Source: Hansschlegelia beijingensis (GTDB lineage Bacteria; Pseudomonadota; Alphaproteobacteria; Rhizobiales; Methylopilaceae). From it: a stretch of DNA of 64,000 nt. Made by a program: the position numbers and the translations under genes. The notes under the pieces were generated by a model. The model was not told the DNA's origin. It did not search any database and saw only the letters and a program-made list of their open reading frames with translations. This document shows, piece by piece, positions 3,181 through 22,791 of this stretch (the first letter of the stretch is position 1; every line of letters begins with the position of its first letter). The stretch is from positions 62,001 to 126,000 of the forward strand of contig NZ_JACIDR010000005.1 of the NCBI RefSeq assembly GCF_014196425.1, read 5' to 3'.

Positions 3181-3320
3181 CCGCACCGGCCGCCGAACTC
3201 GGGTTAGGCCGTCGGCGCCACCGTATAATTGAAGCCAACCTTTTCGCCGGCTTTCATTCGCGCACGTTCGATCGGATCCGCCATCGCGGAAAGGATCGGG
3301 CCCATCGAGGCGCGACCCGC

Positions 3321-3692
3321 GTGGCTTTGCTGATTTCTGTCGTGGACGACGACGGCGCCTCGCGCGCCGCCGTGACGGGACTGCTCCGTTCAATGGGCCA
3401 CGACGCCGTCGGCTTCGCCAGCGCCGCGGAGTTTCTCGCGTCGGATGAACTCGGGAGGACGGGTCTCTTGATTGCGGATCAGCGCATGCCGGAAATCACC
3501 GGGCTCGATCTCCGCCGTCGCCTCCTTGCCGCCGGCGCGCCGATCCCGATGGCGCTCATGACCGCCTATCCAACCGAAGCCGGCCGCCGGCAGGCGCTGG
3601 ACGCCGGAATATTTTCTTATCTGACCAAGCCGGTCTCTCCCGGCGAACTCGCAGCCTGCGTCGCCGCCTCTCAGGGCGGACCGCTCCGCTGA
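3321..3692 (+). CDS. Single-domain response regulator (receiver only)
   Basis: A 123-residue CheY-like receiver without an output domain. Acidic residues D9–D11, phospho-acceptor D53 (IADQRMPE) and K103 (LTKP) are present, so it should be phosphorylatable. It resembles the FixJ receiver subgroup of its neighbour rather than CheY. The start is GTG with GAGG ten bases upstream. A stand-alone receiver beside a kinase/regulator pair may act as a phosphate sink or feedback element, as known for rhizobial single-domain regulators; this role is inferred. It lies 140 bases after the FixJ-type gene and just before the cysteine hydrolase. Confidence 0.85.
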   Translation: MALLISVVDDDGASRAAVTGLLRSMGHDAVGFASAAEFLASDELGRTGLLIADQRMPEITGLDLRRRLLAAGAPIPMALMTAYPTEAGRRQALDAGIFSYLTKPVSPGELAACVAASQGGPLR

Positions 3693-3729
3693 GCGCGACC
3701 GCCCCTTTCAGCCAGACATGGAGCTGACC

Positions 3730-4389
3730 ATGACCATCACCGCCACCCCGACGCCCGGCTCCAGTCTCGTCTCGCCGGCAAACCACGCGCTCATCCTCAT
3801 CGACTTTCAGTCGCAGATGTCGTTCGCGACCAAGTCGATCGACGCGGTCGCGCTGCGCAACAACGCCGCCCTCATCAGCCATGCGGCGAAGGGCTTCGGC
3901 GTGCCCACCATTCTGACCACGGTCGCGGAGAAGAGCTTCTCGGGTCCGATGTTCTCCGAGATCACCGACGCGTTCCCGGGCCAGAAGCTGCTCGACCGCA
4001 CCTCGATGAACACCTGGGAGGACGCGGCCGTCATCGAGGAGGTGAATCGTATCGGCAAGACGCGTCTCGTCTTCGCGGGCCTCTGGACGTCGGTCTGCAT
4101 CGTCGGCCCGACGCTTTCGGCGCTCGACCAGGGCTTCGAGGCCTATGTCATCGCCGACGCCTGCGGCGACGTCTCGGACGAGGCGCATGAGCGCGCCATG
4201 GAGCGCATGATCCAGGCGGGGGTGCGCCCGATGACCTCGCTCCAGTACATCCTCGAGCTCCAGCGCGACTGGGCCCGCGCCGAGACCTACGACTTCACCA
4301 CCGGCGTCGCGAAGAAGTACGGCGGCGCCTACGGGCTCGGGATCGTCTACGCCAAGACCATGTTCGGCGCCTCCGAAGGCGGCCACTAG
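3730..4389 (+). CDS. Isochorismatase-like cysteine hydrolase (YcaC type)
   Basis: Probable cysteine amidohydrolase of 219 residues in the isochorismatase superfamily. Visible are a nucleophile-activating Asp (D25, in ILIDFQSQ), a candidate lysine (K86) and the nucleophile C123 in GLWTSVC. The tail resembles YcaC-type hydrolases, whose physiological substrate is unsettled; related enzymes cleave amides such as nicotinamide, carbamoylsarcosine or biuret. I chose the ATG with GGAG six bases upstream; an in-frame ATG twelve bases earlier has no such site. The next genes encode a RidA-like protein and an amidohydrolase, which suggests a pathway breaking C–N bonds. Confidence 0.85.
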   Translation: MTITATPTPGSSLVSPANHALILIDFQSQMSFATKSIDAVALRNNAALISHAAKGFGVPTILTTVAEKSFSGPMFSEITDAFPGQKLLDRTSMNTWEDAAVIEEVNRIGKTRLVFAGLWTSVCIVGPTLSALDQGFEAYVIADACGDVSDEAHERAMERMIQAGVRPMTSLQYILELQRDWARAETYDFTTGVAKKYGGAYGLGIVYAKTMFGASEGGH

Positions 4390-4448
4390 AGCCCCGCGCC
4401 GGGACGCCGCCTGCGCGGTGAGAACACAGTCGAAATGGGAGGACGATG

Positions 4449-4916
4449 ATGACCGATCGCGGCGACGCGCGCGTCAGGCGGCTCGAAAACCTCGGCATGC
4501 CCTGGGAAAAGCTCTTCGGATACTATCAGGCGGTCCAGTACCGAGACACGATCTACCTCTCGGGGCAGCTCGGCCATGACGACGAGGGCCGGATCGTCGG
4601 GCCCGCCGGGCTCGACGACGCCGGCAAGGTCATCGACGTCTCGGGCATGGAGCAGCAGATCCGACAGACCTACGCGAACGCGTCGCGTCTGCTGGAGCGG
4701 TTCGGCGCGAGCCTCGACGACGTCGTCGAGGAGACGCTTTTCGTCCTCGACATGGACGAGGCCTTTGCGACCGCGCCCCAGGTCAGAAAAGAAGCCTACC
4801 GGACCGACATGCCGCGCTGCGCCAGCACGCTGGTCGCCACGCCGCGGCTCGCCATGCCCGAGCAGCTCGTCGAGATCACGTTCCGCGCCGTCCTCGGCGG
4901 CGGCGCCTCGTCCTGA
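4449..4916 (+). CDS. RidA/YjgF/UK114-family protein
   Basis: Family protein of 155 residues. RidA hydrolyses reactive enamine/imine intermediates to keto acids and ammonia. The carboxylate-binding arginine and the conserved glutamate of the canonical site are recognisable as R123 (MPRCAS) and E142 (QLVEITF), so deaminase-type chemistry is plausible, though many paralogues of this family differ. GGGAGGA lies six bases before the chosen ATG; another ATG directly before it is an alternative. Its place between a cysteine hydrolase and an amidohydrolase suggests removal of an imine or enamine made in the same pathway. Confidence 0.85.
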   Translation: MTDRGDARVRRLENLGMPWEKLFGYYQAVQYRDTIYLSGQLGHDDEGRIVGPAGLDDAGKVIDVSGMEQQIRQTYANASRLLERFGASLDDVVEETLFVLDMDEAFATAPQVRKEAYRTDMPRCASTLVATPRLAMPEQLVEITFRAVLGGGASS

Positions 4917-4919
4917 CCA

Positions 4920-4955
4920 CGGCGAGGGCGCGCCCTGCTGGCGGCGCTCTCGCCG
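4920..4955 (+). terminator. Strong GC hairpin, possible terminator after the RidA-like gene
   Basis: A 12-base stem (one G·T pair) closes a 12-base loop just after the RidA stop. A short TTTT follows about ten bases later, too far for a classic intrinsic terminator. It may be a weak terminator or a 3'-end stabiliser between the RidA-like gene and the amidohydrolase. Confidence 0.35.
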
Positions 4956-4989
4956 ACCCTCGCTTTTCCGCTGAACCGGAGACACGCCC

Positions 4990-6975
4990 ATGAGCCCGAC
5001 GCGCCGCGAAGCGAGCTTCGGCGCGGCCGCCGCCGCTCTCGCCGCAGGCCTCATGTCGCCGGCGCGGGCCGCGCCCGCCGAAGGGACGAACATGACCGAC
5101 GCGACGAACGCAGACCTCATCATGATCAAGGGCCTCGTGACGACGCTCGACCGTTCGGCGCCGACCGCCGAGGCGTTCGCGATCCGGGACGGACGCTTCC
5201 TTGCGGTCGGCCGCGAGACTGAGGTCATGGCCCATCGCGGGCCGGACACGAAGGTCGTCGATCTCAAGGGCCGGCGCGTGTTGCCGGGCCTCATCGACAA
5301 CCACCTCCACATCATCCGCGGCGGGCTCAACTTCAACATGGAGCTGCGCTGGGACGGCGTGCCGTCGCTGAAGGACGCGATGGACATGCTGCGCGCGCAG
5401 GTCGCCATCACCCCGCCTCCGCAATGGGTGCGGGTCGTGGGCGGGTTCACCGAGAACCAGTTCGCGGAAAAGCGCCTGCCGACCATCGAGGAGCTCAATC
5501 AGGTCGCGCCGGAGACCCCCGTCTTCATCCTCCACCTCTATGACCGCGCGCTGCTGAACGGCGCGGCGCTGCGGGCGGTGGGCTACGGCAAGGACACGCC
5601 GAACCCGCCCGGCGGCGAGATCACCCGCGACGCGAAGGGAGAGCCGACCGGTCTGCTGCTCGCAAGACCGAACGCCGGCATCCTCTATTCGACGCTGTCC
5701 AAGGGTCCGAAGCTGCCGCTCGAGCACCAGGTCAACTCGACGCGCCACTTCATGCGCGACCTGAACCGCCTCGGCGTCACGGGCGCGATCGACGCGGGCG
5801 GCGGCTTCCAGAACTATCCGGACGACTATGCGGTCATCCAGAAGCTCGCCGACGAAGGCCAGCTCACCATCCGGCTCGCCTACAACCTCTTCACCCAGAA
5901 GCCGAAGCAGGAGAAGGAGGACTTCCTCGCCTGGACCAGGACGTCCAGGTACCGGCAGGGCGACGACTACTTCCGCCACAACGGCGCTGGCGAGATGCTG
6001 GTCTTCTCCGCCGCCGATTTCGAGGATTTCCGCGAGCCGCGGCCCGAATTGCCGGCCGAGATGGAGGCTGACCTCGAGGGCGTCGTCCGCGTGCTGGCCG
6101 AAAACCGCTGGCCGTGGCGGATGCACGCGACCTATGACGAGACGATCTCGCGCGCGCTGGACGTGTTCGAGACGGTCGACCAGGAGATCCCGCTGAAGGG
6201 CCTGAACTGGTTCTTCGACCACGCCGAGACGATCTCGGAGCGCTCGATCGACCGGGTCGCGGCGCTCGGGGGCGGCGTCGCGGTCCAGCACCGCATGGCC
6301 TATCAGGGCGAATACTTCGTCGAGCGCTACGGCGCCGAGGCCGCGGAAGAAACGCCGCCCTTCGCGCGGATGCTGGACAAGGGCGTGAAGGTCTCGGCCG
6401 GCACCGACGCGACCCGCGTCGCCTCGTACAATCCGTGGGTCTCGCTGTCCTGGCTCGCGACCGGCCGCACCGTCGGCGGTCTGAAGCTCTATCCCTCCCG
6501 CAGCCTTCTCGACCGCGAGACGGCGCTCAGGATGTGGACCGAGAACGTCACCTGGTTCTCGAACGAAGAGGGCAAGAAGGGCCGCATCGCGCCCGGCATG
6601 CTGGCCGACTTCATCGTGCCCGACCGGGACTATTTCGCCTGCGCGCCCGAAGAGATTTCGGCGATCACCTCCGACCTCACCGCCGTCGGCGGCAAGGTCG
6701 TTTTCGCCAAGGCGGACTTCGCGAAGCTCGACGAGACCGAGGTTCCCCCGGCCATGCCGGACTGGTCGCCAGTGCGCGCCTATGGCGGCTACGGCGCCTG
6801 GAAGGCGGAAGCCAGGAAGGACAGCGCGCTTCGCCTCCAGTCGGTCGCCTGCGGCTGCGCCACCGCCTGCGGCGTGCATGGCCACGCCCATGCCCGCGCA
6901 GCGTCCGGCCGGCTGCCCGTCGCCGATCTCAAGGCGTTCTGGGGCGCGCTCGGCTGCGCATGCTGGGCGGTGTGA
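4990..6975 (+). CDS. Exported YtcJ-like amidohydrolase with Cys/His-rich C-terminus
   Basis: Metal-dependent amidohydrolase-superfamily enzyme of 661 residues. The N-terminus has a twin-arginine-like signal (SPTRREASFGAAAAALAAGL, then ARA), so Tat export is likely. The mature part has the amidohydrolase-3 layout: beta strands leading to RRVLPGLIDNHLHI with the first metal-binding HxH, and ending in GRIAPGMLADFIVPDRD. The last 45 residues are unusual: C621, C623, C627, H630, H632, H634, then C656 and C658, a spacing that looks like a metal or Fe–S site. I recall similar tails in other amidohydrolase-3 proteins, but their role is unknown to me. The substrate is unknown; an amide or cyclic amide is inferred from neighbours. 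Confidence 0.85.
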   Translation: MSPTRREASFGAAAAALAAGLMSPARAAPAEGTNMTDATNADLIMIKGLVTTLDRSAPTAEAFAIRDGRFLAVGRETEVMAHRGPDTKVVDLKGRRVLPGLIDNHLHIIRGGLNFNMELRWDGVPSLKDAMDMLRAQVAITPPPQWVRVVGGFTENQFAEKRLPTIEELNQVAPETPVFILHLYDRALLNGAALRAVGYGKDTPNPPGGEITRDAKGEPTGLLLARPNAGILYSTLSKGPKLPLEHQVNSTRHFMRDLNRLGVTGAIDAGGGFQNYPDDYAVIQKLADEGQLTIRLAYNLFTQKPKQEKEDFLAWTRTSRYRQGDDYFRHNGAGEMLVFSAADFEDFREPRPELPAEMEADLEGVVRVLAENRWPWRMHATYDETISRALDVFETVDQEIPLKGLNWFFDHAETISERSIDRVAALGGGVAVQHRMAYQGEYFVERYGAEAAEETPPFARMLDKGVKVSAGTDATRVASYNPWVSLSWLATGRTVGGLKLYPSRSLLDRETALRMWTENVTWFSNEEGKKGRIAPGMLADFIVPDRDYFACAPEEISAITSDLTAVGGKVVFAKADFAKLDETEVPPAMPDWSPVRAYGGYGAWKAEARKDSALRLQSVACGCATACGVHGHAHARAASGRLPVADLKAFWGALGCACWAV

Positions 6976-8056: not shown

Positions 8057-9652
8057 ATGACCCAGACCCAGAACGCCTTCGCTCCTCTTCGCCGGCCCAT
8101 CTTCGTCGTGCTGTGGGTCGCGACGGTCGTCGGCAACATCGGATCCTTCATGCGCGACGTCGCGAGCGCCTGGCTCGTGACGGACCTCGCGGCCTCGCCC
8201 GTCGCGGTCTCGCTGGTGCAGGCGGCCGCGACGCTGCCCATCTTCCTGCTGGCGATCCCCGCCGGCGTCCTCTCCGACATCATCGACCGCCGAAAGCTCC
8301 TGATCGCCATCCAGGCGCTGCTCGGGACGACCAGCCTGACGCTCGCAATCCTTGCCGCTTCGGGCGGCCTGACGGTCTATTCCCTCGTCGCGCTCACCTT
8401 CGTGGGCGGCGTCGGCGCGGCCCTGATGGGCCCGACCTGGCAGTCGATCGTGCCCGAGCTCGTGCCGCGGGGAGAGCTCCGCGACGCGGTGGCGCTGAAT
8501 TCGCTCGGCATCAACGTCGCACGCTCGATCGGGCCGGCCGCGGGCGGCGTCCTGCTCGGCGTCGCGGGCGCCGCAGCGACCTATGGCGTCGACGTCGCCT
8601 CCTATCTGCTGGTGATCGCCGCCCTGCTCTGGTGGCCGCGGCCGAAGGCGGCCGAGGACGTTCTCGCCGAGCGCTTCCCGGGCGCCTTCCGGGCGGGGCT
8701 TCGCTACGCCAAGGCGAGCCGCGAACTGCATCGCGTGCTGTTCCACGCCGGCATCTTCTTCGCCTGCGCCAGCGCCGTCTGGGCGCTTCTGCCGCTGGTC
8801 GCCCGCAGCCTGCTGGGGGGCGACGCGAGCTTCTACGGTCTGCTGCTTGGCGCGGTGGGGCTCGGCGCCATCCTGGGCGCCCTGGTGATGCCGAGCCTTC
8901 GCGCCCGGCTCGGAGCGGACGGACTGCTGCTGTCCGCCGCGATCGTCGCGGCCCTGGTGATGGCCGGCCTCTCCTTCGCGCCCCCGAAGCCCGTCGCCCT
9001 CGCCGGCCTCCTGCTGCTCGGCGTCGCCTGGATCGTCGCGCTGACGACGCTGAACGGCGCCGCGCAGGCGATCCTGCCGAACTGGGTGCGCGGGCGTGGG
9101 CTCGCCGTCTATCTCACGGTCTTCAACGGGGCGATGACGGGCGGGAGCGTCCTGTGGGGTCTGGTCGCCTATCGCCTCGGCGTCGCGTCGACCCTGCTGG
9201 TCGCGGCCGCGTGCCTTGCCGCCGCAGGCCTGCTGCTGCGTCGCCGCGCGCTGCCGAAGGGCGAGACGGACCTCACGCCCTCGAACCATTGGCCGGAGCC
9301 CCTGACGGCCGCCCCCGTGGAGCACGACCGCGGCCCGGTGCTGATCCAGATCGAGTACCGGGTGCGCCGGGAGGACCGGGTCGGGTTTCTCGAGGCCATG
9401 GCGAGGCTCGCCGACGAAAGGCGGCGCGACGGCGCCTATGCGTGCGGCGTGACGGAGGACGCCGAGGATCCGGAGAAGATCGTCGAGTGGTTCCTGGTCG
9501 AGAGCTGGGCCGAGCACCTTCGCCAGCACAAGCGCGTCTCCAACGCCGACGCGGACCTGCAGCAGGCGACCCGGCGCTTCCATGTCGGTCCCGGGGCTCC
9601 GGTCGTGCGCCACCTGCTTGGCCTCGACCTGAAGACCGTCGCGGCGGGCTGA
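8057..9652 (+). CDS. MFS transporter (MFS_3) fused to a C-terminal antibiotic-monooxygenase-like domain
   Basis: A 531-residue inner-membrane protein. Residues 1 to about 410 contain twelve hydrophobic segments of an MFS_3/enterobactin-exporter-like carrier, starting with FAPLRRPIFVVLW and carrying the loop motif GVLSDIIDRRK. Residues about 425–520 form a soluble ferredoxin-like alpha/beta domain similar to ABM or dimeric-barrel proteins. This fusion recurs in alphaproteobacterial MFS_3 proteins; the tail may be a dimerisation or sensing module rather than an enzyme. Likely role: drug or metabolite efflux. It is co-oriented with the hydrolase genes upstream and is followed after seven bases by the outer-membrane channel gene. 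Confidence 0.88.
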   Translation: MTQTQNAFAPLRRPIFVVLWVATVVGNIGSFMRDVASAWLVTDLAASPVAVSLVQAAATLPIFLLAIPAGVLSDIIDRRKLLIAIQALLGTTSLTLAILAASGGLTVYSLVALTFVGGVGAALMGPTWQSIVPELVPRGELRDAVALNSLGINVARSIGPAAGGVLLGVAGAAATYGVDVASYLLVIAALLWWPRPKAAEDVLAERFPGAFRAGLRYAKASRELHRVLFHAGIFFACASAVWALLPLVARSLLGGDASFYGLLLGAVGLGAILGALVMPSLRARLGADGLLLSAAIVAALVMAGLSFAPPKPVALAGLLLLGVAWIVALTTLNGAAQAILPNWVRGRGLAVYLTVFNGAMTGGSVLWGLVAYRLGVASTLLVAAACLAAAGLLLRRRALPKGETDLTPSNHWPEPLTAAPVEHDRGPVLIQIEYRVRREDRVGFLEAMARLADERRRDGAYACGVTEDAEDPEKIVEWFLVESWAEHLRQHKRVSNADADLQQATRRFHVGPGAPVVRHLLGLDLKTVAAG

Positions 9653-11223: not shown

Positions 11224-12150
11224 ATGGCGCAGCAGAATTTCGACGACGTCGCGACGCTCGGCGCGCGGATCGCGAACCTCCGCCAGGACGGAGGTTACGC
11301 GCTCGGCGTCGAGACCGAGCAGGGCGTGCTGGACGTCGGCGCGACGGCTCGGGCCTTCGGGCTTCCGGCGCCGACCGACGTCGACGACCTCCTCCAGAAT
11401 GGGCGCGGCGCGGAGCTTCGCGCGGTCATCGAGGCCGCGAAGGCGGCGCCGGCCGACGCCGTCCTGCTCGACCTTTCGGCCGTGGCCTTCGCGCCGCTCG
11501 TGACGCGGCCGGAGAAGATCATCTGCATGGGCTTCAACTACCGGGAGCACGCCCACGAGACCGGCACGCCGATCCCGAAGATCCCGCCGCTGTTCAACAA
11601 GTTCAACAACGCGCTCAACCACCATGGGGGCACGATCGCGCTGCCCACGCGGGTGGCGCGCCATTTCGACTTTGAAACCGAACTCGTCATCGTTTTCGGC
11701 CGGGAGTGCCGCGACGCGACGGAGGAGAACGCCCTCGACTTCGTCGCCGGCTACGCCACCGGCAACGATTTCAGCGCGCGCGACCTGCAGACGGCGACCT
11801 CGCAGTTCATGATCGGCAAGACGTCCGACGGCTTCGCGCCGATCGGCCCCTGGCTCGTCACCCGCGACAGGGTGGCGGACCCCAACGACCTGAAGCTCAA
11901 GACCGTGGTGAACGGCCAGATCCGGCAGGACTGGTCGACCAACGACATGATCTTCAACTGCCGCCAGCTGATCAGCTTCGCGTCCGGGATCATGACGCTG
12001 AAGCCCGGCGACGTGATGTTCACCGGCACGCCCCAGGGGGTGATCTTCGGAGAGAAAGCCCCGCCGGAGGAGCGCCGCTGGCTGCGGGCGGGAGATGAGA
12101 TCGTGTCGACGCTCGAGGGCCTCGGCGACCTCAGGTTCACGCTGACCTGA
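11224..12150 (+). CDS. Fumarylacetoacetate hydrolase-family protein
   Basis: Protein of 308 residues with the FAH C-terminal catalytic domain. It shows the opening KIICMGFNYREHAHETG, the metal-binding acids in FDFETELVIVFG (E151 and E153) and NDFSARDLQ (D182), and the closing SFASGIMTLKPGDVMFTGTP. Such enzymes use Mg or Mn to cleave C–C bonds of 2,4-diketo acids, or act as oxaloacetate decarboxylase or hydratase; the exact substrate is not readable. GGAGGATCAGCC precedes the ATG. It ends 120 bases before the phosphonate operon, but the LysR-site-like motif lies after its stop, so it is probably not part of that regulon. Confidence 0.9.
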   Translation: MAQQNFDDVATLGARIANLRQDGGYALGVETEQGVLDVGATARAFGLPAPTDVDDLLQNGRGAELRAVIEAAKAAPADAVLLDLSAVAFAPLVTRPEKIICMGFNYREHAHETGTPIPKIPPLFNKFNNALNHHGGTIALPTRVARHFDFETELVIVFGRECRDATEENALDFVAGYATGNDFSARDLQTATSQFMIGKTSDGFAPIGPWLVTRDRVADPNDLKLKTVVNGQIRQDWSTNDMIFNCRQLISFASGIMTLKPGDVMFTGTPQGVIFGEKAPPEERRWLRAGDEIVSTLEGLGDLRFTLT

Positions 12151-12175: not shown

Positions 12176-12217
12176 CATAGCTTTTCTGTATGGCGGTCGC
12201 TCCAACTATCAATTGGA
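12176..12217 (+). promoter_or_regulatory. Probable LysR-type regulator site upstream of the phosphonate operon
   Basis: A bipartite element: CATAGCTTTT followed by TAT and GC, and, starting 32 bases after its first base, ATCAATTGGA. The same two ten-base blocks at exactly the same spacing occur at 17014–17055 over the start of the LysR gene of this cluster. Conservation of the blocks but not of the bases between them is what a regulator with two contact regions leaves. It lies 56 bases before the dehydrogenase ATG. Confidence 0.65.
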
Positions 12218-12242
12218 ATGCGACAGCGATTGGCTGTCCTTT

Positions 12243-12267
12243 CTCCCCGACAGTCCTTGTCGGGGAG
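12243..12267 (+). promoter_or_regulatory. Hairpin covering the ribosome-binding site of the dehydrogenase gene
   Basis: CTCCCCGACA and TGTCGGGGAG form a perfect ten-base stem with a five-base loop (GTCCT). The 3' arm contains GGGGAG, part of the Shine-Dalgarno region of the gene starting at 12273. Folding would hide the ribosome-binding site, so translation may be regulated, or the stem may be a chance or repeat-derived palindrome. No T-run follows. Confidence 0.5.
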
Positions 12268-12272
12268 CGGAG

Positions 12273-13382
12273 ATGTCGGCGGCGTGGGGATACGCGAACC
12301 CGGTCAGGGTGACCTTCGGGGAGGACGCAGCCTCCGCGATCCGCGAGAAGGTGGCGGGGCGCAGCTACTGCCTGCTCACCTATAACGATCACCCCTATTT
12401 CGACGAGATGGTCGAGGCGATCTCCCGGGCCGCCGGCGCGCCGGCGGTGGTGGTGCGCGACGTCGAGCCGAACCCGAGCTTCATCGGCCTGAGCACCGCC
12501 TGCCGCTCCTACGGCGCGGCGCCCACGGCGCCGGAAGTCATCGTCGCCTTCGGCGGCGGTTCCGTGATCGACACCGCCAAGGTGCTCGCCGCCGCCGGCT
12601 CAGACTTCGGACGGGTTCAGGCGTTCCTCGAAGGCCGCGCCGGAGCGGAGACGCTGAGCGCGACCCCGATCATCGCCGTGCCGACCACTGCGGGCACCGG
12701 AAGCGAGGTCACCAGCTGGGCGACCGTCTGGGACACCGAGGCCAGGAAGAAGTACTCGCTGAACCGGCCGAACCTCTATCCCGAGCATGCGATCCTCGAC
12801 CCGAAGGCGTCGCTCGCCGCGCCCCGCGGCCTGACCATGTCGACCGGCCTCGACGCCCTCAGCCACGCGCTTGAGAGCATCTGGAACGTCAACGCCAATC
12901 CGGTTTCGGCCAATCACGCCGTGTTCGCCGCGACCGAGATCCTCGACGCACTTCCGAAGCTGCTCGACCGGCTCGACGACGTGGCGCTGCGCGTGCGCGT
13001 GGCCCAGGCGAGCCTCTTCGCCGGGCTCTCCTTCTCGAACACGAAGACGGCGCTCGCCCATTCGCTGTCCTACTACCTCACGCTGAACCACGGCACGGTG
13101 CACGGCATCGCCTGCTCATTCAGCCTGCCGGCGGTCATGCGCAGCGTGATCGGCCGGAACGCGGCTTGCGACGCGACCCTCCAGCGCATCTTCGGCCACG
13201 ATCTCCACGTGGGGGCCGACAAGCTCGAGGCCTTCCTGAAGGCGCTCGGCGTCGCCACCCGCGCCACGGATTACGGAGTGACGCAGAATGACTGGCTGGC
13301 GGCGATCGAAGACGCCCTGAAGGGCGAGCGCGGCCTGAACTTCATCGGCAGCCGCGACGCCGTGCTCGCGGCGGCCGCCTGA
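12273..13382 (+). CDS. Iron-containing alcohol dehydrogenase, probable phosphonoacetaldehyde reductase
   Basis: Group III metal-dependent alcohol dehydrogenase of 369 residues. The nucleotide-binding GGGSVID motif lies near residue 95. Metal ligands can be placed at D194, H198, H263 and H277 (DALSH, LAHSL, NHGTVH), numbering almost identical to that of E. coli FucO. It is the first gene of an operon with phnA and phnY, so it most plausibly interconverts phosphonoacetaldehyde and 2-hydroxyethylphosphonate, the reaction of PhpC-like enzymes. That would either let hydroxyethylphosphonate enter the pathway or drain excess aldehyde. The family is certain; the substrate is inferred from context. 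The ATG follows GGGGAGCGGAG. Confidence 0.82.
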   Translation: MSAAWGYANPVRVTFGEDAASAIREKVAGRSYCLLTYNDHPYFDEMVEAISRAAGAPAVVVRDVEPNPSFIGLSTACRSYGAAPTAPEVIVAFGGGSVIDTAKVLAAAGSDFGRVQAFLEGRAGAETLSATPIIAVPTTAGTGSEVTSWATVWDTEARKKYSLNRPNLYPEHAILDPKASLAAPRGLTMSTGLDALSHALESIWNVNANPVSANHAVFAATEILDALPKLLDRLDDVALRVRVAQASLFAGLSFSNTKTALAHSLSYYLTLNHGTVHGIACSFSLPAVMRSVIGRNAACDATLQRIFGHDLHVGADKLEAFLKALGVATRATDYGVTQNDWLAAIEDALKGERGLNFIGSRDAVLAAAA

Positions 13383-13392
13383 GGAGAGCATC

Positions 13393-14643
13393 ATGAACAT
13401 GCACGCCAACACCGGCGCCGACGTCGTGGCGAACGGCCGGAGCTACAGGCGGCCGGAACGGCCCGTGGTCGTGATCTGCATCGACGGCTCCGAGCCCGGC
13501 TATATCGAGCGCGCGATCGAGGCCGGCCTCGCCCCGAACCTCGACCGCCTGATGAAGACCGGCGCGAACACGACCGCGCTGTCGGTCATCCCGAGCTTCA
13601 CCAATCCGAACAACCTGTCGATCATCACCGGCCGTCCGCCGGCGATGCACGGGATCGCCGGCAATTTCTTCTACGACCGAGACGCCGGCGTCGAAGTGAT
13701 GATGAACGACGCCCGGTTCCTGCGCGCGCCCACCATCCTGGCCGCGTTCCAGAAGGCCGGCATGAAGGTCGCGATGGTGACCGCCAAGGACAAGCTGCGC
13801 GTCCTGCTCGGCAAGGGCCTCGATTTCACCTACGGAACCGCGATCGCGTTCTCGTCGGAGAAGGCGGACAAGGCGAATCTCGTCGAAAACGGGATCGAGA
13901 ACGTGCTCGAATTCGTCGGACTGCCGCTGCCGGAGGTTTACTCGGCCGACCTGTCGGAGTTCGTGTTCGCCGCCGGCGTGAAGCTCCTGAAGACCTTCCG
14001 CCCGGACGTCATGTACCTCTCGACCACGGATTACGTGCAGCACAAGGCGGCACCGGGCTCCGAGGTCGCGAACGCCTTCTACGCGATGTTCGACCGCTAT
14101 GTCGGCGAACTCGACGCAACAGGCTGCACGCTCGTCATGACCGCCGACCACGGCATGAACGACAAGCATCTCCCGGACGGCTCTCCCGCCGTGATCTACC
14201 TGCAGGAGATCCTGGACGCGACGCTCGGCGCGGGCGCCACGCGGGTGATCCTGCCGATCACCGATCCCTACGTCGCCCATCACGGCGCGCTCGGCTCGTT
14301 CGCGACCGTCTATGTCGACGCGGCGATGAAGCCGGCCGTGATCGAGGTCGCCAGGGCGATCGAGGGCGTAACGGTCGCGATCACGGCCGAGGAGGCGTGC
14401 GAGCGCTTCGAGCTGCCGGCGGACCGCATCGGCGACGTCGTGGTGCTCTCCGACCGCAACAAGGCGCTCGGCGCGTCGGCGGCGAAGCACGATCTGTCCG
14501 GCCTCACCGAGCCGCTCCGCAGCCACGGCGGCCTCACCGAGCAGACCGTGCCGATGATCGCGAACCGCCCGATCGAAGTTCCGGCCGGGCGGACCCTGCG
14601 CAATTTCGACGTCTTCGACGTCGCGCTCAACCTGGTCCGGTGA
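13393..14643 (+). CDS. phnA: Phosphonoacetate hydrolase
   Basis: Alkaline-phosphatase-superfamily enzyme of 416 residues that cleaves the C–P bond of phosphonoacetate to acetate and phosphate with two zinc ions. The nucleophile T70 is in PSFTNPNN. Metal ligands are visible in CIDGSEP (D31), STTDYVQH and TADHGMND, and a later RSHGGL. Length and motifs match the characterised Sinorhizobium meliloti PhnA. It follows the dehydrogenase by ten bases with GAGGAGAG before the ATG, and its stop overlaps the phnY start. It is cytoplasmic and acts last in the AEP degradation route. Confidence 0.95.
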
Positions 14644-16100
14644 TGCCCATGAACGTCATCGTCAAGCCGCCCTTCCGCCGCGAGGCCATGCGGATCGCGG
14701 GCAAGCTCGTCCAGACCGACGACATCGTCGAGGTCTTCCACCCTTACGACAACTCCGTCGTCGGCACGGTGCCGGCGGCGCGGCCGGAGCACGTGCGCGA
14801 CGCCTTCGCGAAGGCTCGCGCGTTCAAGCCGAAGCTCACCCGCTACGAGCGTCAGCAGATCCTGCAGAGAACCGCCGAGATCCTGCGGGACCGCAAGGAG
14901 GAGTTCGCCCGCCTCATCGTCGCCGAGACAGGGCTCTGCTGGAAGGACGGGCTTTACGAGGCCTCGCGCGCCTATGACGTCTGGTCGTTCGCGGCGCAGC
15001 TCACGATCAGGGACGACGGCGAGATCTACGCCTGCGACATCTCCCCGATGGGCAAGGCGCGCAAGATCTTCACGACGCGCACGCCCTTGCTCGGCGTCAT
15101 CTCCGCGATCACGCCATTCAATCACCCGCTCAACATGGTGAGCCACAAGCTCGCGCCGGCGATCGCGACCAACAATCGCGTGGTGCTGAAGCCGACGGAG
15201 CTGACGCCGCTGACCGCTCTCGCGCTCGCCGACGTGCTGTACGAGGCGGGGTTGCCGCCCGAGATGCTGTCGGTCGTGACCGGCAACCCCTCCACCATGG
15301 GCGACGCCATGATCACCGACCCGGACGCCGATCTCGTGACGTTCACGGGCTCTGTGCGCGTCGGTAAGCACATCGCGAACACCGCGGGCTACAAGCGCGT
15401 CGTGCTGGAGCTCGGCGGCAACGACCCGCTGATCGTCATGGAGGACGCCGACCTCGACAAGGCGGCGGAGCTCGCGGTGGCGGGCGCCACCAGGAACTCC
15501 GGCCAGCGCTGCACGGCGGTGAAGCGCATTCTCGTGGTGAACGCCGTCGCCGACGAATTCTCGAAGCTCGTGGCGGAGATAGCGAAGACGCTGAAGTCGG
15601 GCGATCCGCTCGACCCTTCCACCGACGTCGGCACGGTGATCAACGAGCGCTCGGCCATCCTGTTCGAGAACAGGGTCAACGCGGCGGTCGAGCTCGGCGC
15701 CGAGGTGCTGCATGGCGCGCCGCGCCAGGGCGCGCTGTTCGCCCCGACCGTGGTCGATCACGTGCCCTATGACTGCGAGCTGGTGCGCGAGGAGACCTTC
15801 GGGCCGGTGATCCCGATCATCCGCTGCCCCGGCGACATCGCGGAGGTGATCCGCATCTCGAATTCGACCGCCTACGGCCTGTCGTCGGGCGTGTGCACGG
15901 ACCGCCTCGACTACATCAACCGCTTCGTCACGGAGCTCGAGGTCGGGACAGTGAACGTGTGGGAAGCGCCGGGCTACCGGATCGAGATGTCGCCCTTCGG
16001 CGGCATCAAGGATTCCGGCCTCGGCGACAAAGAAGGCGTGGTGGAGGCCATGAAGAGCTTCACCCATGTCCGGACATGGTCGATGCCCTGGACGGCGTGA
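14643..16100 (+). CDS. phnY: Phosphonoacetaldehyde dehydrogenase
   Basis: NAD(P)-dependent aldehyde dehydrogenase of 485 residues. It oxidises phosphonoacetaldehyde to phosphonoacetate, linking PhnW to PhnA. The catalytic cysteine is C290 ([10 protein letters not shown]) and the general base E256 (VLELGG); the cofactor region FTGSVRVGK is intact. The positions agree closely with the S. meliloti PhnY I know. The first ATG overlaps the phnA stop (TGATG); an ATG two codons later is an alternative. The gene converges on the LysR gene with a 22-base gap. Confidence 0.94.
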
Positions 16101-16122
16101 GCGCCCCCGAGGGTCCTCGAGA

Positions 16123-17016
16123 TCACCTGCCCGCTTCGCCTTCGCGCGCTTCGCTCAAGGCGGCGGCGACCTCCATGAACGCGGCGATCAGCCGGGACTG
16201 GACGCGGTCGCGGACGCAGGCGACATGGGCGTGATTGAAGATGCTCGCGTCGGCGATCGGGCGGCACGTCAGGCGCTCGTCGCCCACATACTCCGCGAGC
16301 GAGACGAAGCCGAGGCCCACTCCGCTCGCCACCGCCTCGCGCACGGCCTCGCGGCTGCCAATCTCCATGACGATCTGCGGCGTGACGCCGGCCGTCCTGA
16401 GAGCCGCCTCGCTCGCGCGGCGGGTGTTCGATCCCCGCTCGCGATAAACCATCGGCTGGCCGTCAAGCTGCGCGATCCGCAGGCCGCCGGCCTCTTGCAT
16501 GAGCGGGTGGTCGCGCCGACCAAAGACGACGATCGGATCCTCGCTGTACTGCCGGACCCACAGGCGCGGGTCGTTCTCGACATAGGCGAGCACCGCGACG
16601 TCCGAGCGAAAGTCGAGCAGGCTTTCGAGCACCTCCACCGAGTTGCCGACCGAGACGGAGATCTCGATCTGCGGATAGCGCGCATGGAACGCGACCAGCA
16701 TCTCGGTCACGTGGAACGGGCCGACCGCGCCGACCCTGAGCTTGCCCGTCTTCAGCTCACGGCTCTCGGTCAGGAAGTGCCGGGCGTCGGCCTCCTCGGC
16801 GAACAGGCGGCGCGTGATCTGCTGGAGCTGCCGGCCGGCCTCCGTCAGCCGCATGCGCCCGCCTGCGCGAATGAACAGCTCGACGGAATACGCTTCCTCG
16901 AGCGCGCGGACCTGAGTCGTCAGGGTCGGCTGGCTGACGTTCAGCTGCTGGGAGGCGGCGGTCACGCTCTCCGCTGCGGCGACGGCGTGGAACGAGCGGA
17001 GCTGCGTGAACCTCAT
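16123..17016 (-). CDS. LysR-family regulator of the phosphonate cluster
   Basis: LysR-type regulator of 297 residues. The N-terminal winged helix (FTQLRSFHAVAAAESVTAAS, then SQPTLTTQVRALEE) is followed by a ligand-binding domain beginning GKLRVGAVG. It probably senses AEP, phosphonoacetaldehyde or phosphonoacetate. I chose the ATG six codons inside the open frame because LysR proteins begin just before the first helix. It sits between phnY (convergent) and phnC (divergent). The motif over its start is repeated upstream of the dehydrogenase operon, supporting autoregulation and control of that operon. It could be called PhnR-like, but orthology to the known PhnR is untested. Confidence 0.88.
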   Translation of the reverse strand: MRFTQLRSFHAVAAAESVTAASQQLNVSQPTLTTQVRALEEAYSVELFIRAGGRMRLTEAGRQLQQITRRLFAEEADARHFLTESRELKTGKLRVGAVGPFHVTEMLVAFHARYPQIEISVSVGNSVEVLESLLDFRSDVAVLAYVENDPRLWVRQYSEDPIVVFGRRDHPLMQEAGGLRIAQLDGQPMVYRERGSNTRRASEAALRTAGVTPQIVMEIGSREAVREAVASGVGLGFVSLAEYVGDERLTCRPIADASIFNHAHVACVRDRVQSRLIAAFMEVAAALSEAREGEAGR

Positions 17017-17055
17017 AGCTTTTTCATATAGCAAAAGTCTAAGCGATCAATTGGA
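17014..17055 (-). promoter_or_regulatory. Second copy of the bipartite LysR-site motif, over the LysR start
   Basis: On the plus strand this reads CATAGCTTTT, TAT, GC and then ATCAATTGGA, with the same 32-base offset as at 12176–12217. One block covers the start codon of the LysR gene and the other its promoter region. This fits autorepression, which is usual in LysR regulators, with the same protein acting at the dehydrogenase operon. Confidence 0.65.
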
Positions 17056-17241: not shown

Positions 17242-17259
17242 CTGTCACGAAGGTGTAAT
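17242..17259 (+). promoter_or_regulatory. Pho-box-like site upstream of phnC
   Basis: CTGTCAC, four bases, then GTGTAAT: two heptamers eleven bases apart, matching the PhoB half-site CTGTCAT at six and five of seven positions. It lies 83 bases before the phnC ATG. PhoB control of phosphonate uptake genes under phosphate starvation is well established. The remainder of the 325-base gap shows nothing else I can interpret. Confidence 0.5.
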
Positions 17260-17341: not shown

Positions 17342-18154
17342 ATGCTCGAACTCAATGGCCTGACACGACGATACGGGAGCAACCTCGCCGTCGCGGACGT
17401 GGACCTCAAGGTCGAGATGGGGGCCTTCGTCGGCGTGATCGGACGCTCCGGCGCCGGGAAATCCACTCTTCTTCGGATGATCAACCGGCTCAGCGCGCCC
17501 TCGGCGGGGACGATCCGCTTCGACGGTCGCGACGTCGGGGCGCTCAAGGGCGCGGCGCTTCGCGCCTGGCGCGCCGACTGCGCGATGATCTTCCAGCAGT
17601 TCAACCTCATCGGACGGCTCGACGTGCTGACGAACGTGCTGATGGGCCGGCTCAGCCACGCCTCCGCGATGCGTTCGCTGCTGCGCCTGTGGTCGGACGT
17701 GGACCGCGCGATCGCGTTCGTGGCTCTCGAGCAGTTCGACATCGCGCATCTCGCCTCCGAGCGCGCGGAGAACCTCTCCGGCGGCCAGCAGCAGCGCGTC
17801 GCCATCGCCCGGGCGCTGGTCCAGGAGCCGCAGATCATCCTCGCCGACGAGCCGATCGCGTCGCTCGACCCGCGCAACACCCGCGTCGTGATGGACGCGC
17901 TGGGCGCCATCAACCGGCGCTACGGCATCACCGTGCTCTGCAACCTCCATTCACTCGACCTCGCCCGGAGCTACTGCGACCGGCTCGTCGGGATGGCGGC
18001 GGGGCGCGTGGTGTTCGACGGCGCGCCCCGGGATCTCACCGACGACGTCGCCCGCGCGCTCTACGGCATCGAAGCCGATGACGCGGCGGGCGAGCGGCAG
18101 GCGGCTCCGGAACCGCGGTCCCCCGCCCTGGCGCGAGCCGTGGCGGTCGCCTGA
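17342..18154 (+). CDS. phnC: Phosphonate ABC transporter, ATP-binding protein
   Basis: ATPase subunit of 270 residues. Walker A ([11 protein letters not shown]), the signature LSGGQQQR and Walker B (IILADEP) are intact, and the phosphonate-type segments [23 protein letters not shown] and the closing D-loop/His region ([13 protein letters not shown]) are typical of PhnC. It powers import through PhnE from the periplasmic binding protein PhnD. It is the first gene of phnCDEE, 48 bases before phnD, with a Pho-box-like site upstream. A tail of about 25 residues beyond the core is Ala/Arg/Glu-rich. Confidence 0.93.
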
Positions 18155-18202
18155 GCCCATCCATCCGGCTTGGCCGGCGGCTTTCATGACGAGGACAATC
18201 CG

Positions 18203-19135
18203 ATGCTCAACCGCAGAACCCTGATCGCGGCCGCGCTCGCGGCGGGCGTCATGGCGCCGCCCGCAGCCCAGGCGCAGGGCTGGAAGGAGAAATATCCCGA
18301 GCTCACCTTCGCCGCGATCCCGACCGAGAACCCGTCGGTCACGACGGACCGCTACAGCAAGCTCGCCGACTACCTGTCCAAAGAGCTTGGCGTGAAGGTC
18401 GACTTTCGCATCGCCAACGACTACGCGGCGATCATCGAGGGCCAGCGCGCCGGCAACATCCAGATCGCCTATTACGGCCCTGCCTCCTACGCCCGCGCGC
18501 TGATGACCGGCGTCGAGACCGAGGCGATCACGCGGGCCCGCCGCAACAACGGCTCCACCGGCTACACCTCCGTGCTGCTGGTGCGCGCCGACAGCCCCTA
18601 TCGGACGCTCGAGGACCTCAAGGGCAAGACGCTCGCCCTGGTCGATCCGAACTCGACCTCGGGGAATAACGCGCCGCGCTTCTTCCTCGACAAGAAAGGC
18701 GTCAAGACCGACAGCTACTTCGGCAAGGTGTTCTTCGCCGGCAGCCACGAGAACGCGGTGCTGGCGCTGACCCAGGGCACGGCCGACGTCGCGGCGAACG
18801 CCTGGTACGCCGATACCGACACCCACGTCACCCGCATGGCCGAGAAGGGCATGCTCAAGGACGCCGCCGGCAAGCCGCTCACTCCTGACGACTTCCGCGT
18901 CGTGTTCCGCACCGATCTCCTGCCGGGCGATCCCTACGCAGTGCTGGCGAGCCTCCCGGCCGAGCTGAAGCAGGCGATCAAGCAGGCGATGCTCGACATG
19001 CCGAAGAAGGACGCGGCCGGCTTCAGAGCGCTCTCGGACGGCAAGGACATCGAGTTCGTGCCGACGGAAGCGAAGGAATATGACGGCGTCATCGAGATGC
19101 TGAAGTTCAACGACCGCGCCCGCAGGACCGGCTGA
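18203..19135 (+). CDS. phnD: Phosphonate ABC transporter, periplasmic binding protein
   Basis: Periplasmic phosphonate-binding protein of 310 residues. A signal peptide (LNRRTLIAAALAAGVMAPPAAQAQ) is cleaved after AQA. The mature part has the PhnD features: the AAIPTENPSVTTDRY opening strand, an IAYYGPASYARAL segment lining the pocket, and the LVDPNSTSGNNAPR loop that contacts the phosphonate group. The ATG follows GAGGA at seven bases. It should deliver AEP or a related phosphonate to the PhnE permeases. Confidence 0.93.
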   Translation: MLNRRTLIAAALAAGVMAPPAAQAQGWKEKYPELTFAAIPTENPSVTTDRYSKLADYLSKELGVKVDFRIANDYAAIIEGQRAGNIQIAYYGPASYARALMTGVETEAITRARRNNGSTGYTSVLLVRADSPYRTLEDLKGKTLALVDPNSTSGNNAPRFFLDKKGVKTDSYFGKVFFAGSHENAVLALTQGTADVAANAWYADTDTHVTRMAEKGMLKDAAGKPLTPDDFRVVFRTDLLPGDPYAVLASLPAELKQAIKQAMLDMPKKDAAGFRALSDGKDIEFVPTEAKEYDGVIEMLKFNDRARRTG

Positions 19136-19160
19136 CGCCCCCAGCCCGGGACCCGAGATC

Positions 19161-20054
19161 ATGACGGACCGCGTCCCCGTCGCGCCGAGCCTTCCGGGCG
19201 GTCAGGCTCAGGCTCTGCTCGCCGGCTACGACCGCGCGCTCGCGGCGCGGCGGGGGCGCAGCCTGACCGCGCTCGGCGTGGTTCTCGGCTGCGCCCTGCT
19301 CTCCGCATGGGCCGCGGAGGTGCGGCCGGGCGACCTCGCCGCCAACCTGTATCGCTTCACGAGCTACATCGGCCGCATCACCCCGACGCTGACCTGGGCG
19401 AACCTCTTCGGGGACCTGGCCGAGTGGTACTGGAACGTCGGTCTCTGGACGCGGCTCCTCGTGGAGACGCTGCTGATCGCCTATGTGGGCACGCTGGTCG
19501 GCGGGGCGATCGCCGTCTGCCTTTGCTTCACGGCTTCCGGAAATCTCGGCGAGATCGCCTGGGCGCGCTTCGCCGTGCGGCGCGTGCTGGAGTTCCTGCG
19601 CACCGTGCCGGAGGTCGTGTTCGCGCTGCTCTTCGTCATCGCGTTCGGGCTCGGGCCGATGGCGGGCGTGATCGCCATCGCGCTTCACACCGCCGGGGCG
19701 CTCGGAAAACTGTTCTTCGAGATCGTCGAGAACATCGACATGAAGCCGGTGGAGGGCGTCCGCTCCTCCGGGGGCTCGTGGCTCCACGCGGTGCGCTTCG
19801 CGGCGCTGCCCCAGGTGGCGGCCGGCTTCGCCTCCTACGCCCTGCTCCGGTTCGAGATCAACGTGCGCGGGGCCTCGGTGATGGGCTTCGTCGGCGCAGG
19901 CGGCATCGGCCAGGAGCTGATCTCCGCCATCCGGCAGTTCTACTACCCGGACGTCAGCGCGATCCTGCTGATGATCATCGCGACCGTGTTCGTGATCGAC
20001 ATTGCGGACGAACGAATCCGCCACCGGCTGGCCGCCGTGGAGAGCCCGAAATGA
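19161..20054 (+). CDS. phnE: Phosphonate ABC transporter permease (first PhnE)
   Basis: Inner-membrane permease of 297 residues with about six hydrophobic segments. The binding-protein-dependent transport motif in the cytoplasmic loop is present (EGVRSSGGSWLHAVRFAALPQV), which docks on PhnC. It precedes a second, diverged PhnE and overlaps its start by four bases (ATGA), so the membrane part is probably a heterodimer. Confidence 0.92.
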   Translation: MTDRVPVAPSLPGGQAQALLAGYDRALAARRGRSLTALGVVLGCALLSAWAAEVRPGDLAANLYRFTSYIGRITPTLTWANLFGDLAEWYWNVGLWTRLLVETLLIAYVGTLVGGAIAVCLCFTASGNLGEIAWARFAVRRVLEFLRTVPEVVFALLFVIAFGLGPMAGVIAIALHTAGALGKLFFEIVENIDMKPVEGVRSSGGSWLHAVRFAALPQVAAGFASYALLRFEINVRGASVMGFVGAGGIGQELISAIRQFYYPDVSAILLMIIATVFVIDIADERIRHRLAAVESPK

Positions 20055-20988: not shown

Positions 20989-21513
20989 TCAGGCCGCGAA
21001 GCGCCGGAACGCTCGTCCGATCTCGGCGTAAACCGCCCGCTTGAACGGCACGACCAGCTCGACCGCCGTCTCCAGCCTCTCCCAGCGCCAGTCGGAGAAC
21101 TCCTGCGGGACGCCGGCCGGGGACCGCGTGACGTCGATCTCGTCGTCCGTTCCCTCGAAGCGCATCGCGAACCAGCGCTGCCGCTGGCCCCGGAAGCGCG
21201 ACAGCCTGTGGGGCGGACCGTCATAGGGCGGGAAGTCATAGCTCAGCGTCTCGGGATGAACGGCGAGCAGCGACGCCCGGGTCACGCCGGTCTCCTCCGC
21301 GAGCTCGCGCCAGGCGGCCGCCTCCGGAGTTTCTCCCGGATCGATCCCGCCCTGCGGCATCTGCCACTCATGGCCGGGCGAGATGGTCTCCGGGCCGTCG
21401 TCGCCGATCCGCCGCGCGATCAGCACAAGGCCGCGGGCGCTGAACAGCGCCACCCCGACATTGGGGCGGTAGGCGCGATCGCCCCGCCCGCCATCATGCT
21501 CCTGCAGCGCCAT
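20989..21513 (-). CDS. rppH: Nudix hydrolase, RNA pyrophosphohydrolase
   Basis: Nudix protein of 174 residues. The full Nudix box is readable from GGIDPGETPEAAAWREL to AEETGV, preceded by the RppH signature YRPNVGVALFS and WQMPQGG. RppH removes pyrophosphate from 5'-triphosphorylated RNA and so starts mRNA decay; in alphaproteobacteria the family also covers (di)nucleoside polyphosphate hydrolases. It lies on the opposite strand between phnE and phnW and has no evident link to phosphonates. Confidence 0.9.
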   Translation of the reverse strand: MALQEHDGGRGDRAYRPNVGVALFSARGLVLIARRIGDDGPETISPGHEWQMPQGGIDPGETPEAAAWRELAEETGVTRASLLAVHPETLSYDFPPYDGPPHRLSRFRGQRQRWFAMRFEGTDDEIDVTRSPAGVPQEFSDWRWERLETAVELVVPFKRAVYAEIGRAFRRFAA

Positions 21514-21648: not shown

Positions 21649-22791
21649 ATGTCCTCAACCAAACCCGCATCCTCGACGACAGGCGATCCGCTTCTTCTGA
21701 CGCCCGGTCCGCTGACGACCTCCCGCTCGGTGAAGGAGGCCATGGTTCACGACTGGGGCTCGCGCGACGCCCGCTTCATCGCGATCAACAGGGCGGTGCT
21801 CGAAACTCTTCCGCGGGTGATCCTCGGCGAAGGCGCGTTCGTCGCCGTGCCGATGCAGGGCTCCGGCACCTTCGCGATCGAGGCGATGCTGACGAGCTTC
21901 GTGCCGCGCGACGGCAAGGCGCTGGTGCTCGTGAACGGCGCCTATGGCCGCCGCGCCAGGACGATCCTCGACATCGCGGGGCGCGCCAGCGTGGTCTACG
22001 AGACGACGGAGGACGTTCCGCCGGAGCCCGGCGAGATCGACGCGATGCTCGCGGCCGACGCGGCGATCACACACGTCTTCATCGTCCACTGCGAGACCAC
22101 GAGCGGCATCCGCAATCCGGTCGAGGCGGTGGCGGCGGTGGTGGAGCGCCACGGCCGGCGCCTGCTGATCGACGCCATGAGCGCGTTCGGCGCGCTGGAG
22201 CTCGACGCCCGCGAGGTCGCCTTCGACGCCGTCGCGGCCTCCTCGAACAAGTGCCTCCAGGGCGTGCCGGGGCTCGGCTTCGTGCTGGCGCGCAAGTCCG
22301 CGCTGGAGGCGACGAAGGGAAACGCGACCACGCTGACGCTCGACCTGTTCGACCAGCACCAGGCGCTGTCCAGCAGCGGCCAGTACCGGTTCACGCCGCC
22401 GATCCACGTCATCGCGGCGCTGCATCAGGCGCTCGAGGAATTCTGGGCCGAAGGCGGAACCGCGGGGCGCGGCCGGCGATACGCCGAGAACGCCCGCATC
22501 CTGATCCAAGGGATGGGCAGGCTCGGCTTCCGGACGCTGCTTCCGGAGACCCTGCAAGCGCCGATCATCGTCACCTTCCGGACGCCGGAGCACGAGCGCT
22601 TCGTGTTCCAGCGCTTCTACGACGCGCTGAGGGACCGGGGCTTCGTGATCTACCCCGGCAAGCTGACCGTCGCCGACACCTTCCGTGTCGGCTGCATCGG
22701 CGAACTCCATGCGGCCGACATGGCGGCCTTCGTCGCCGCCGTGAAGGACACGCTCCTGGAAATGGGAGCGGGGCTGAGGACCGCGGCCTGA
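21649..22791 (+). CDS. phnW: 2-Aminoethylphosphonate–pyruvate transaminase
   Basis: PLP-dependent class V aminotransferase of 380 residues. It transfers the amino group of AEP to pyruvate, giving phosphonoacetaldehyde and alanine. It begins LLLTPGPLTTSRSVKEAM and has PLP-binding D175 (LLIDAMSAFG) and the Schiff-base lysine K201 (ASSNKCLQG). C-terminal PGKLTVADTFRVGCIG is typical of PhnW. It supplies the substrate for PhnY. The chosen ATG gives the usual family length; the ribosome-binding site is weak. It stands alone after rppH, so its promoter may differ from that of phnCDEE. Confidence 0.95.
   Translation: MSSTKPASSTTGDPLLLTPGPLTTSRSVKEAMVHDWGSRDARFIAINRAVLETLPRVILGEGAFVAVPMQGSGTFAIEAMLTSFVPRDGKALVLVNGAYGRRARTILDIAGRASVVYETTEDVPPEPGEIDAMLAADAAITHVFIVHCETTSGIRNPVEAVAAVVERHGRRLLIDAMSAFGALELDAREVAFDAVAASSNKCLQGVPGLGFVLARKSALEATKGNATTLTLDLFDQHQALSSSGQYRFTPPIHVIAALHQALEEFWAEGGTAGRGRRYAENARILIQGMGRLGFRTLLPETLQAPIIVTFRTPEHERFVFQRFYDALRDRGFVIYPGKLTVADTFRVGCIGELHAADMAAFVAAVKDTLLEMGAGLRTAA

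Follow-up and report, generated by a model that had tools for sequence, protein, structure and literature searches.

Within a 64,000-nucleotide stretch of the Hansschlegelia beijingensis genome (contig NZ_JACIDR010000005.1, positions 62,001 to 126,000; hereafter the window), two copies of a 42-base motif lie in a gene cluster for phosphonate use, one ahead of the psrA-phnA-phnY operon and the other at the start of the cluster's LysR-type regulator gene, P0001. Judged by their letters, their placement and the company they keep in other genomes, both copies are very probably operators of P0001 itself. Mutant and reporter work has revealed LysR regulators of phosphonate breakdown (PMC9311074, PMC10574752), and no printed operator sequence for such regulators was found in the portions of the open PMC literature that were consulted.

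The two motif copies and their chance expectation

Both copies follow the layout CATAGCTTTT-N22-ATCAATTGGA:

12176..12217, plus strand: copy 1, putative operator, with a T-N11-A box within 12177-12191 and a distal block at 12208-12217; precedes psrA-phnA-phnY
17014..17055, plus strand: copy 2, putative operator, with its box within 17015-17029 and its distal block at 17046-17055; overlaps the LysR start codon and faces phnC

All 20 letters of the two arms are identical between the copies, whilst the 22-base spacers agree at 8 positions and the adjoining 50-base flanks at 17/50 and 14/50. The initial annotation, which had reported two equally spaced blocks with TAT and GC kept between them and the second copy lying across the LysR start, was accurate on each point: the blocks are exact on the plus strand, the spacer agreement consists of TAT, GC and three scattered letters, and the CAT at 17014-17016 is the complement of the LysR ATG. 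Its further claim that such a pair is improbable by chance must be recast. In itself, a pair of 10-mers shared at equal spacing over no more than 60 bases is nothing unusual, with 19 counts in the window against a mean of 3.7 and a maximum of 13 in 20 shuffles; what is exceptional is the composition of this pair, the sole AT-rich one shared in a window of 69% GC (14/20 A/T, the runner-up having 6/20), and pairs with at least 12 A/T were absent from all 20 shuffles. The full pattern, allowing up to 3 mismatches, matched twice in the window and never in 100 shuffles, and a search of the whole genome (3.66 Mb) returned the same two places and no others, as did a looser core with up to 2 mismatches.

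Family scores for the genes around the copies, judged against curated NCBIfam cut-offs, are as follows:

12273..13382, plus strand: psrA (P0002), iron-containing alcohol dehydrogenase; TIGR03405, 416.7 bits, slightly under the membership cut-off of 423.7
13393..14643, plus strand: phnA, phosphonoacetate hydrolase; TIGR02335, above cut-off
14643..16100, plus strand: phnY, phosphonoacetaldehyde dehydrogenase; TIGR03250, above cut-off
16123..17016, minus strand: LysR-type regulator P0001; best family TIGR03339 (phn_lysR), 314.8 bits, below the cut-off of 341.1
17342..20054, plus strand: phnC, phnD and phnE, phosphonate importer; TIGR02315, TIGR03431 and TIGR01097, all above cut-offs
20989-21513, minus strand: RppH-like gene
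Within 21658-22791: phnW; above the cut-offs of three PhnW models

The LysR gene and the operon stand tail to tail. Two relatives of P0001, L047 (322.1 bits) and L092 (294.4 bits), also score below the TIGR03339 cut-off.

Relatives, genus and wider distribution of the site

A scan of genome contigs yielded 43 LysR relatives, of which 19 (L003-L021) scored at least 36 at the LysR gene in a weight matrix, with nothing over 14.2 at the other 24; the matrix included copy 2, so that its scores on the window itself are not independent. Together with L047, from the window's own genus, and L048, from its order, these make 21 relatives in which the region separating LysR from a divergent psrA holds a single 42-base site, although phnA and phnY are not present in every fetched stretch. 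Loci L003-L021 come from Sphingopyxis, Bosea, other Hyphomicrobiales and metagenome-assembled genomes (MAGs), three being labelled beta-proteobacterial or Burkholderiales. CATAG overlaps the LysR ATG in 18/21; in the three labelled beta-proteobacterial, it ends 19-23 bases upstream. A sequence-only model free of window sequence (R1) was built from 15 of the 21 sites, with L008, L011, L014, L015, L016 and L021 dropped as near copies, and in an unfiltered search of the window it matched the two copies only (13.4 and 11.5 bits; E-values 0.0083 and 0.032). Neither R1 nor the weight matrix found a third site in the window, leaving phnW without one. Amongst the fetched loci, two full copies occur in the window alone. 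The MAG of Bosea at L014 has a weak second site (8988-9029, plus strand; score 15.9) downstream of LysR, where the next large upstream-facing open reading frame (ORF) is, by reading, no phosphonate gene.

The genus offers a closer control, in a set of 13 genomes that includes the window's own. The exact core is found in two of them, the same two that hold a P0001-type LysR, whilst phnA is present in 11/13 and OxyR-like LysR genes, none above the family cut-off, in 13/13. Two other genomes have one-mismatch core matches, around which no LysR or phosphonate gene was found; G582 carries psrA-phnA and a partial match to another LysR, with no site, and G581 has a distant phnA only. In seven genomes (L090-L092, L094-L096, L109) a sister LysR, 41-44% identical, diverges from phnW-phnA-phnY, and the intergenic region contains CATAG-N7-CTAT and a ATATTGGA block at the same spacing as in the window. 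The sister gene starts 1-5 bases beyond the site in five of the six read, L094 being the remaining one. The form ATAG-N8-TAT-N20-ATTGGA gives 10 matches across the genus, all 10 at phosphonate LysR genes, and none when reversed. For the LysR of the 12273-17016 region, the nearest relatives (L003-L006, L047) lie in a MAG, in one other genome of the same genus and, outside the order, in Sphingopyxis; taken with the sister LysR beside phnW-phnA-phnY in 7/13 genomes, this kinship is a sign of transfer or replacement. At L109 (about 3289-6107, minus strand), phnA and phnY of G580 (88% complete) each align as two overlapping pieces in different frames, through either sequencing error or decay.

Beyond the genus the grammar becomes less specific. 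A search of 385 genomes of the class for the 15-base core gave 9 matches, spread over 8 genomes (reversed control, 1): two in the window, three between a phosphonate LysR (44-47% identical) and phnW (L079-L081), one before an OxyR-like gene (L078), one upstream of an AhpC-like ORF (L075) and two beside neither (L076, L077). Among 397 genomes of the order, the looser CATAG-N8-TAT-N20-ATTGGA matched 32 times, in 31 genomes (reversed control, 2). Of the 31 examined, with G077 left out, two are the window's, phosphonate LysR genes account for 10, other LysR genes for 14, and the remaining five have no LysR alongside. In loci L115-L118, L121 and L130-L138 the loose grammar (site near 1501-1542) coincides with, or adjoins, the beginning of a different LysR gene; start-codon operators seem to be a frequent feature of LysR genes in this order. 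The initial annotation had proposed an undescribed regulator site, to be doubted if many copies turned up away from phosphonate genes. What survives is a candidate regulator site that tracks this LysR across genomes, standing both at the operon's promoter and at the LysR gene. The single copy in the relatives' divergent intergenic regions and the direction of copy 2 towards phnCDE had escaped it. The comparison does not support a new kind of site: it fits the general LysR-family form, and its loose form does occur at LysR genes away from phosphonate genes; the exact pair has no such copies in the genome or the genus.

Several observations weigh against assigning the site to P0001. Seven LysR relatives at least 50% identical lack it (L022-L024, L043, L065-L067). 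Three of these, L065-L067, are 54-55% identical, diverge from psrA with a different inverted repeat at the start, and fall in the tree within the supported branch of the window LysR (98/93), so the operator was lost or replaced at least there. In a second set of 16 other LysR loci, seven had no weight-matrix match above 13. Eleven of the 14 other LysR genes at loose matches were fitted best by an OxyR-like query, and since the loose form turns up often at other LysR genes, the binding protein cannot be told from its letters alone. The distal letters likewise fail to divide psrA-type from phnW-type regulators, as L080, whose LysR stands beside phnW, carries ATCAATTGGA. To these may be added two features of the sites themselves: amongst psrA-type sites the second-box letters T34/A46 occur in 4/16, none of them a window copy, with the near half conserved, and the search for a consensus promoter close to the two copies found none. 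The missing promoter would be expected of an activator-dependent one, which is a weak argument.

Anatomy, proposed mechanism and rival explanations

The anatomy of the site was tabulated from 14 of the 21 relatives' sites, the two window copies and eight sister-type sites, all chosen by their match. With that selection, an AT-N11-AT box, with dyad symmetry, is present in 24/24, window copies included, and all eight sister-type sites show a second T-N11-A 31 bp further along, or about three helical turns. LysR-family sites are described as T-n11-A, or more fully CTATA-n9-TATAG, and LysR-family dimers of dimers change sites with inducer (PMC5002191); copy 2 fits the fuller form at 8/10 letters and copy 1 at 7/10. 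On sequence grounds, the grammar is the general LysR operator form and its architecture textbook. As in the general operator (PMC5002191), a T-N11-A box stands at the regulator's start with a second block about three turns targetward, and the divergent layout is that of the window's relatives. The window differs in that regulator and target are not divergent and have one copy each, and in the irregular far half of its second box. Two LysR-type phosphonate regulators offer further parallels. AepR of Pseudomonas putida BIRD-1, a LysR-type regulator beside phosphonate genes, controls phnWX there and is needed for substrate induction, which the mutant loses (PMC9311074). PhnR of Pseudomonas fluorescens 23F, also LysR-type, is required for induction of phnA by phosphonoacetate (review PMC10574752), and is reported not to be close to AepR-type regulators (PMC9311074). 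PbfF (PMC12366243) was set aside as a comparison, belonging to a different protein family.

In the mechanism we propose, the left part of each copy (CATAG...TAT, with the T-N11-A box) would be the recognition site, and the right part (ATCAATTGGA), some three helical turns further along, an activation site beside the target promoter, with a LysR tetramer bridging the two. Binding of an inducer from the phosphonate pathway would shift the tetramer, helping RNA polymerase to start psrA-phnA-phnY at copy 1. LysR activator boxes are usually centred near -65; were the box of copy 1 so placed, its TTGGAA would fall at -35. At copy 2 the box covers the LysR start, and binding there may limit LysR expression. 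No ribosome-binding site for lysR is evident by reading, and the box reaches the ATG; together these suggest that lysR may be transcribed without a leader, and that the site may serve in autorepression.

Similar boxes serve other LysR-family proteins, and the sites could instead belong to one of these, such as an OxyR-like protein that would tie phosphonate use to oxidative stress. The OxyR box is ATAG-N7-CTAT-N7-ATAG-N7-CTAT, and OxyR has been footprinted on the phnW promoter of P. aeruginosa (PMC5720770). The left block resembles its first half-site, OxyR-like genes abut loose matches at 11/29 loci examined, and the match at L075 lies upstream of an AhpC-like ORF. By reading, the copies run ATAG-N7-GTAT and ATAG-N7-ATAT, and the second half-site, with ATAG seven bases on, is missing from both. 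Within the genus, moreover, the core follows the P0001-type LysR and not the OxyR-like genes that every genome holds, on which grounds we rejected an OxyR site and consider any such owner decidedly improbable. That the likeness is accidental, or due to some repeat element with no regulatory role, is more remote by far. GC-rich DNA does yield such block pairs by chance, but the 20 shuffles never produced an AT-rich one, and the presence of just two copies genome-wide, at promoters whose counterparts in other genomes conserve the site, tells heavily against it.

A further alternative grants the site to the regulator and holds that just one of the copies functions, the other, copy 2 (or copy 1), being a decaying leftover of rearrangement. 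A single site serves both genes in the relatives, and the DNA behind copy 2 is rich in G and C and shows no recognisable promoter facing phnC. The identity of the arms, set against spacers that agree at 8/22 and flanks at about a third, suggests that both copies have been kept, and we regard a dead copy as unlikely. Two working operators of P0001 remain the preferred reading.

The split control region and neighbouring features

Gene order accounts for the duplication. The relatives' arrangement is LysR (minus strand), site, psrA; that of the window is site, psrA, phnA, phnY, LysR (minus strand), site, with both sites in the same direction, and the separation of LysR from psrA explains why there are two. 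An ancestral single site between divergent LysR and psrA would have served both genes until a rearrangement parted them, leaving a site with each. Two routes would yield this order: a tandem duplication followed by reciprocal loss, or a move of LysR together with its site; by reading, no LysR remnants were seen in the translations left of copy 1, nor psrA remnants right of copy 2. The window offers a natural example, and a clear one, of a divergent control region that has come apart into two. The grammar points to sites open to test in alpha- and some beta-proteobacterial genomes; it could also assist in assigning regulons or building phosphonate sensors.

Copy 2 faces phnC, and phnCDE is a possible further target. 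Such joint control would make sense given that Bosea loci have phnDCE behind the single site and psrA. Counting against it are the modest identity of the Bosea proteins to those of the window (about 32-46%), a leader of about 290 bases and a Pho-box-like sequence nearer phnC. The fullest version of the story, on which each gene kept a whole operator after the split, giving two switches free to diverge, with copy 2 bringing phnCDE under LysR and the 42-base grammar constituting the first operator described for hydrolytic-phosphonate LysR regulators, is put forward tentatively and is rather doubtful as a whole.

Searches for other signals returned little: no terminator was found near either copy, and Rfam gave no match to a known structured RNA over 12 kb. 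The Pho-box-like CTGTCACGAAGGTGTAAT (17242-17259, plus strand) upstream of phnC is weak, having one mismatch to a loosened pattern that matched at least once in 29/100 shuffles. A fumarylacetoacetate-hydrolase-like gene (11224-12150, plus strand; all family matches under cut-off) stops 25 bases before copy 1. Directly before the psrA start (12243-12267, plus strand) lies a perfect 10-bp inverted repeat with a 5-base loop, whose fold is not exceptional (z -1.43; 17/200 shuffles equally good); its 3' arm contains GGGGAG ahead of the ATG and could mask the ribosome-binding site.

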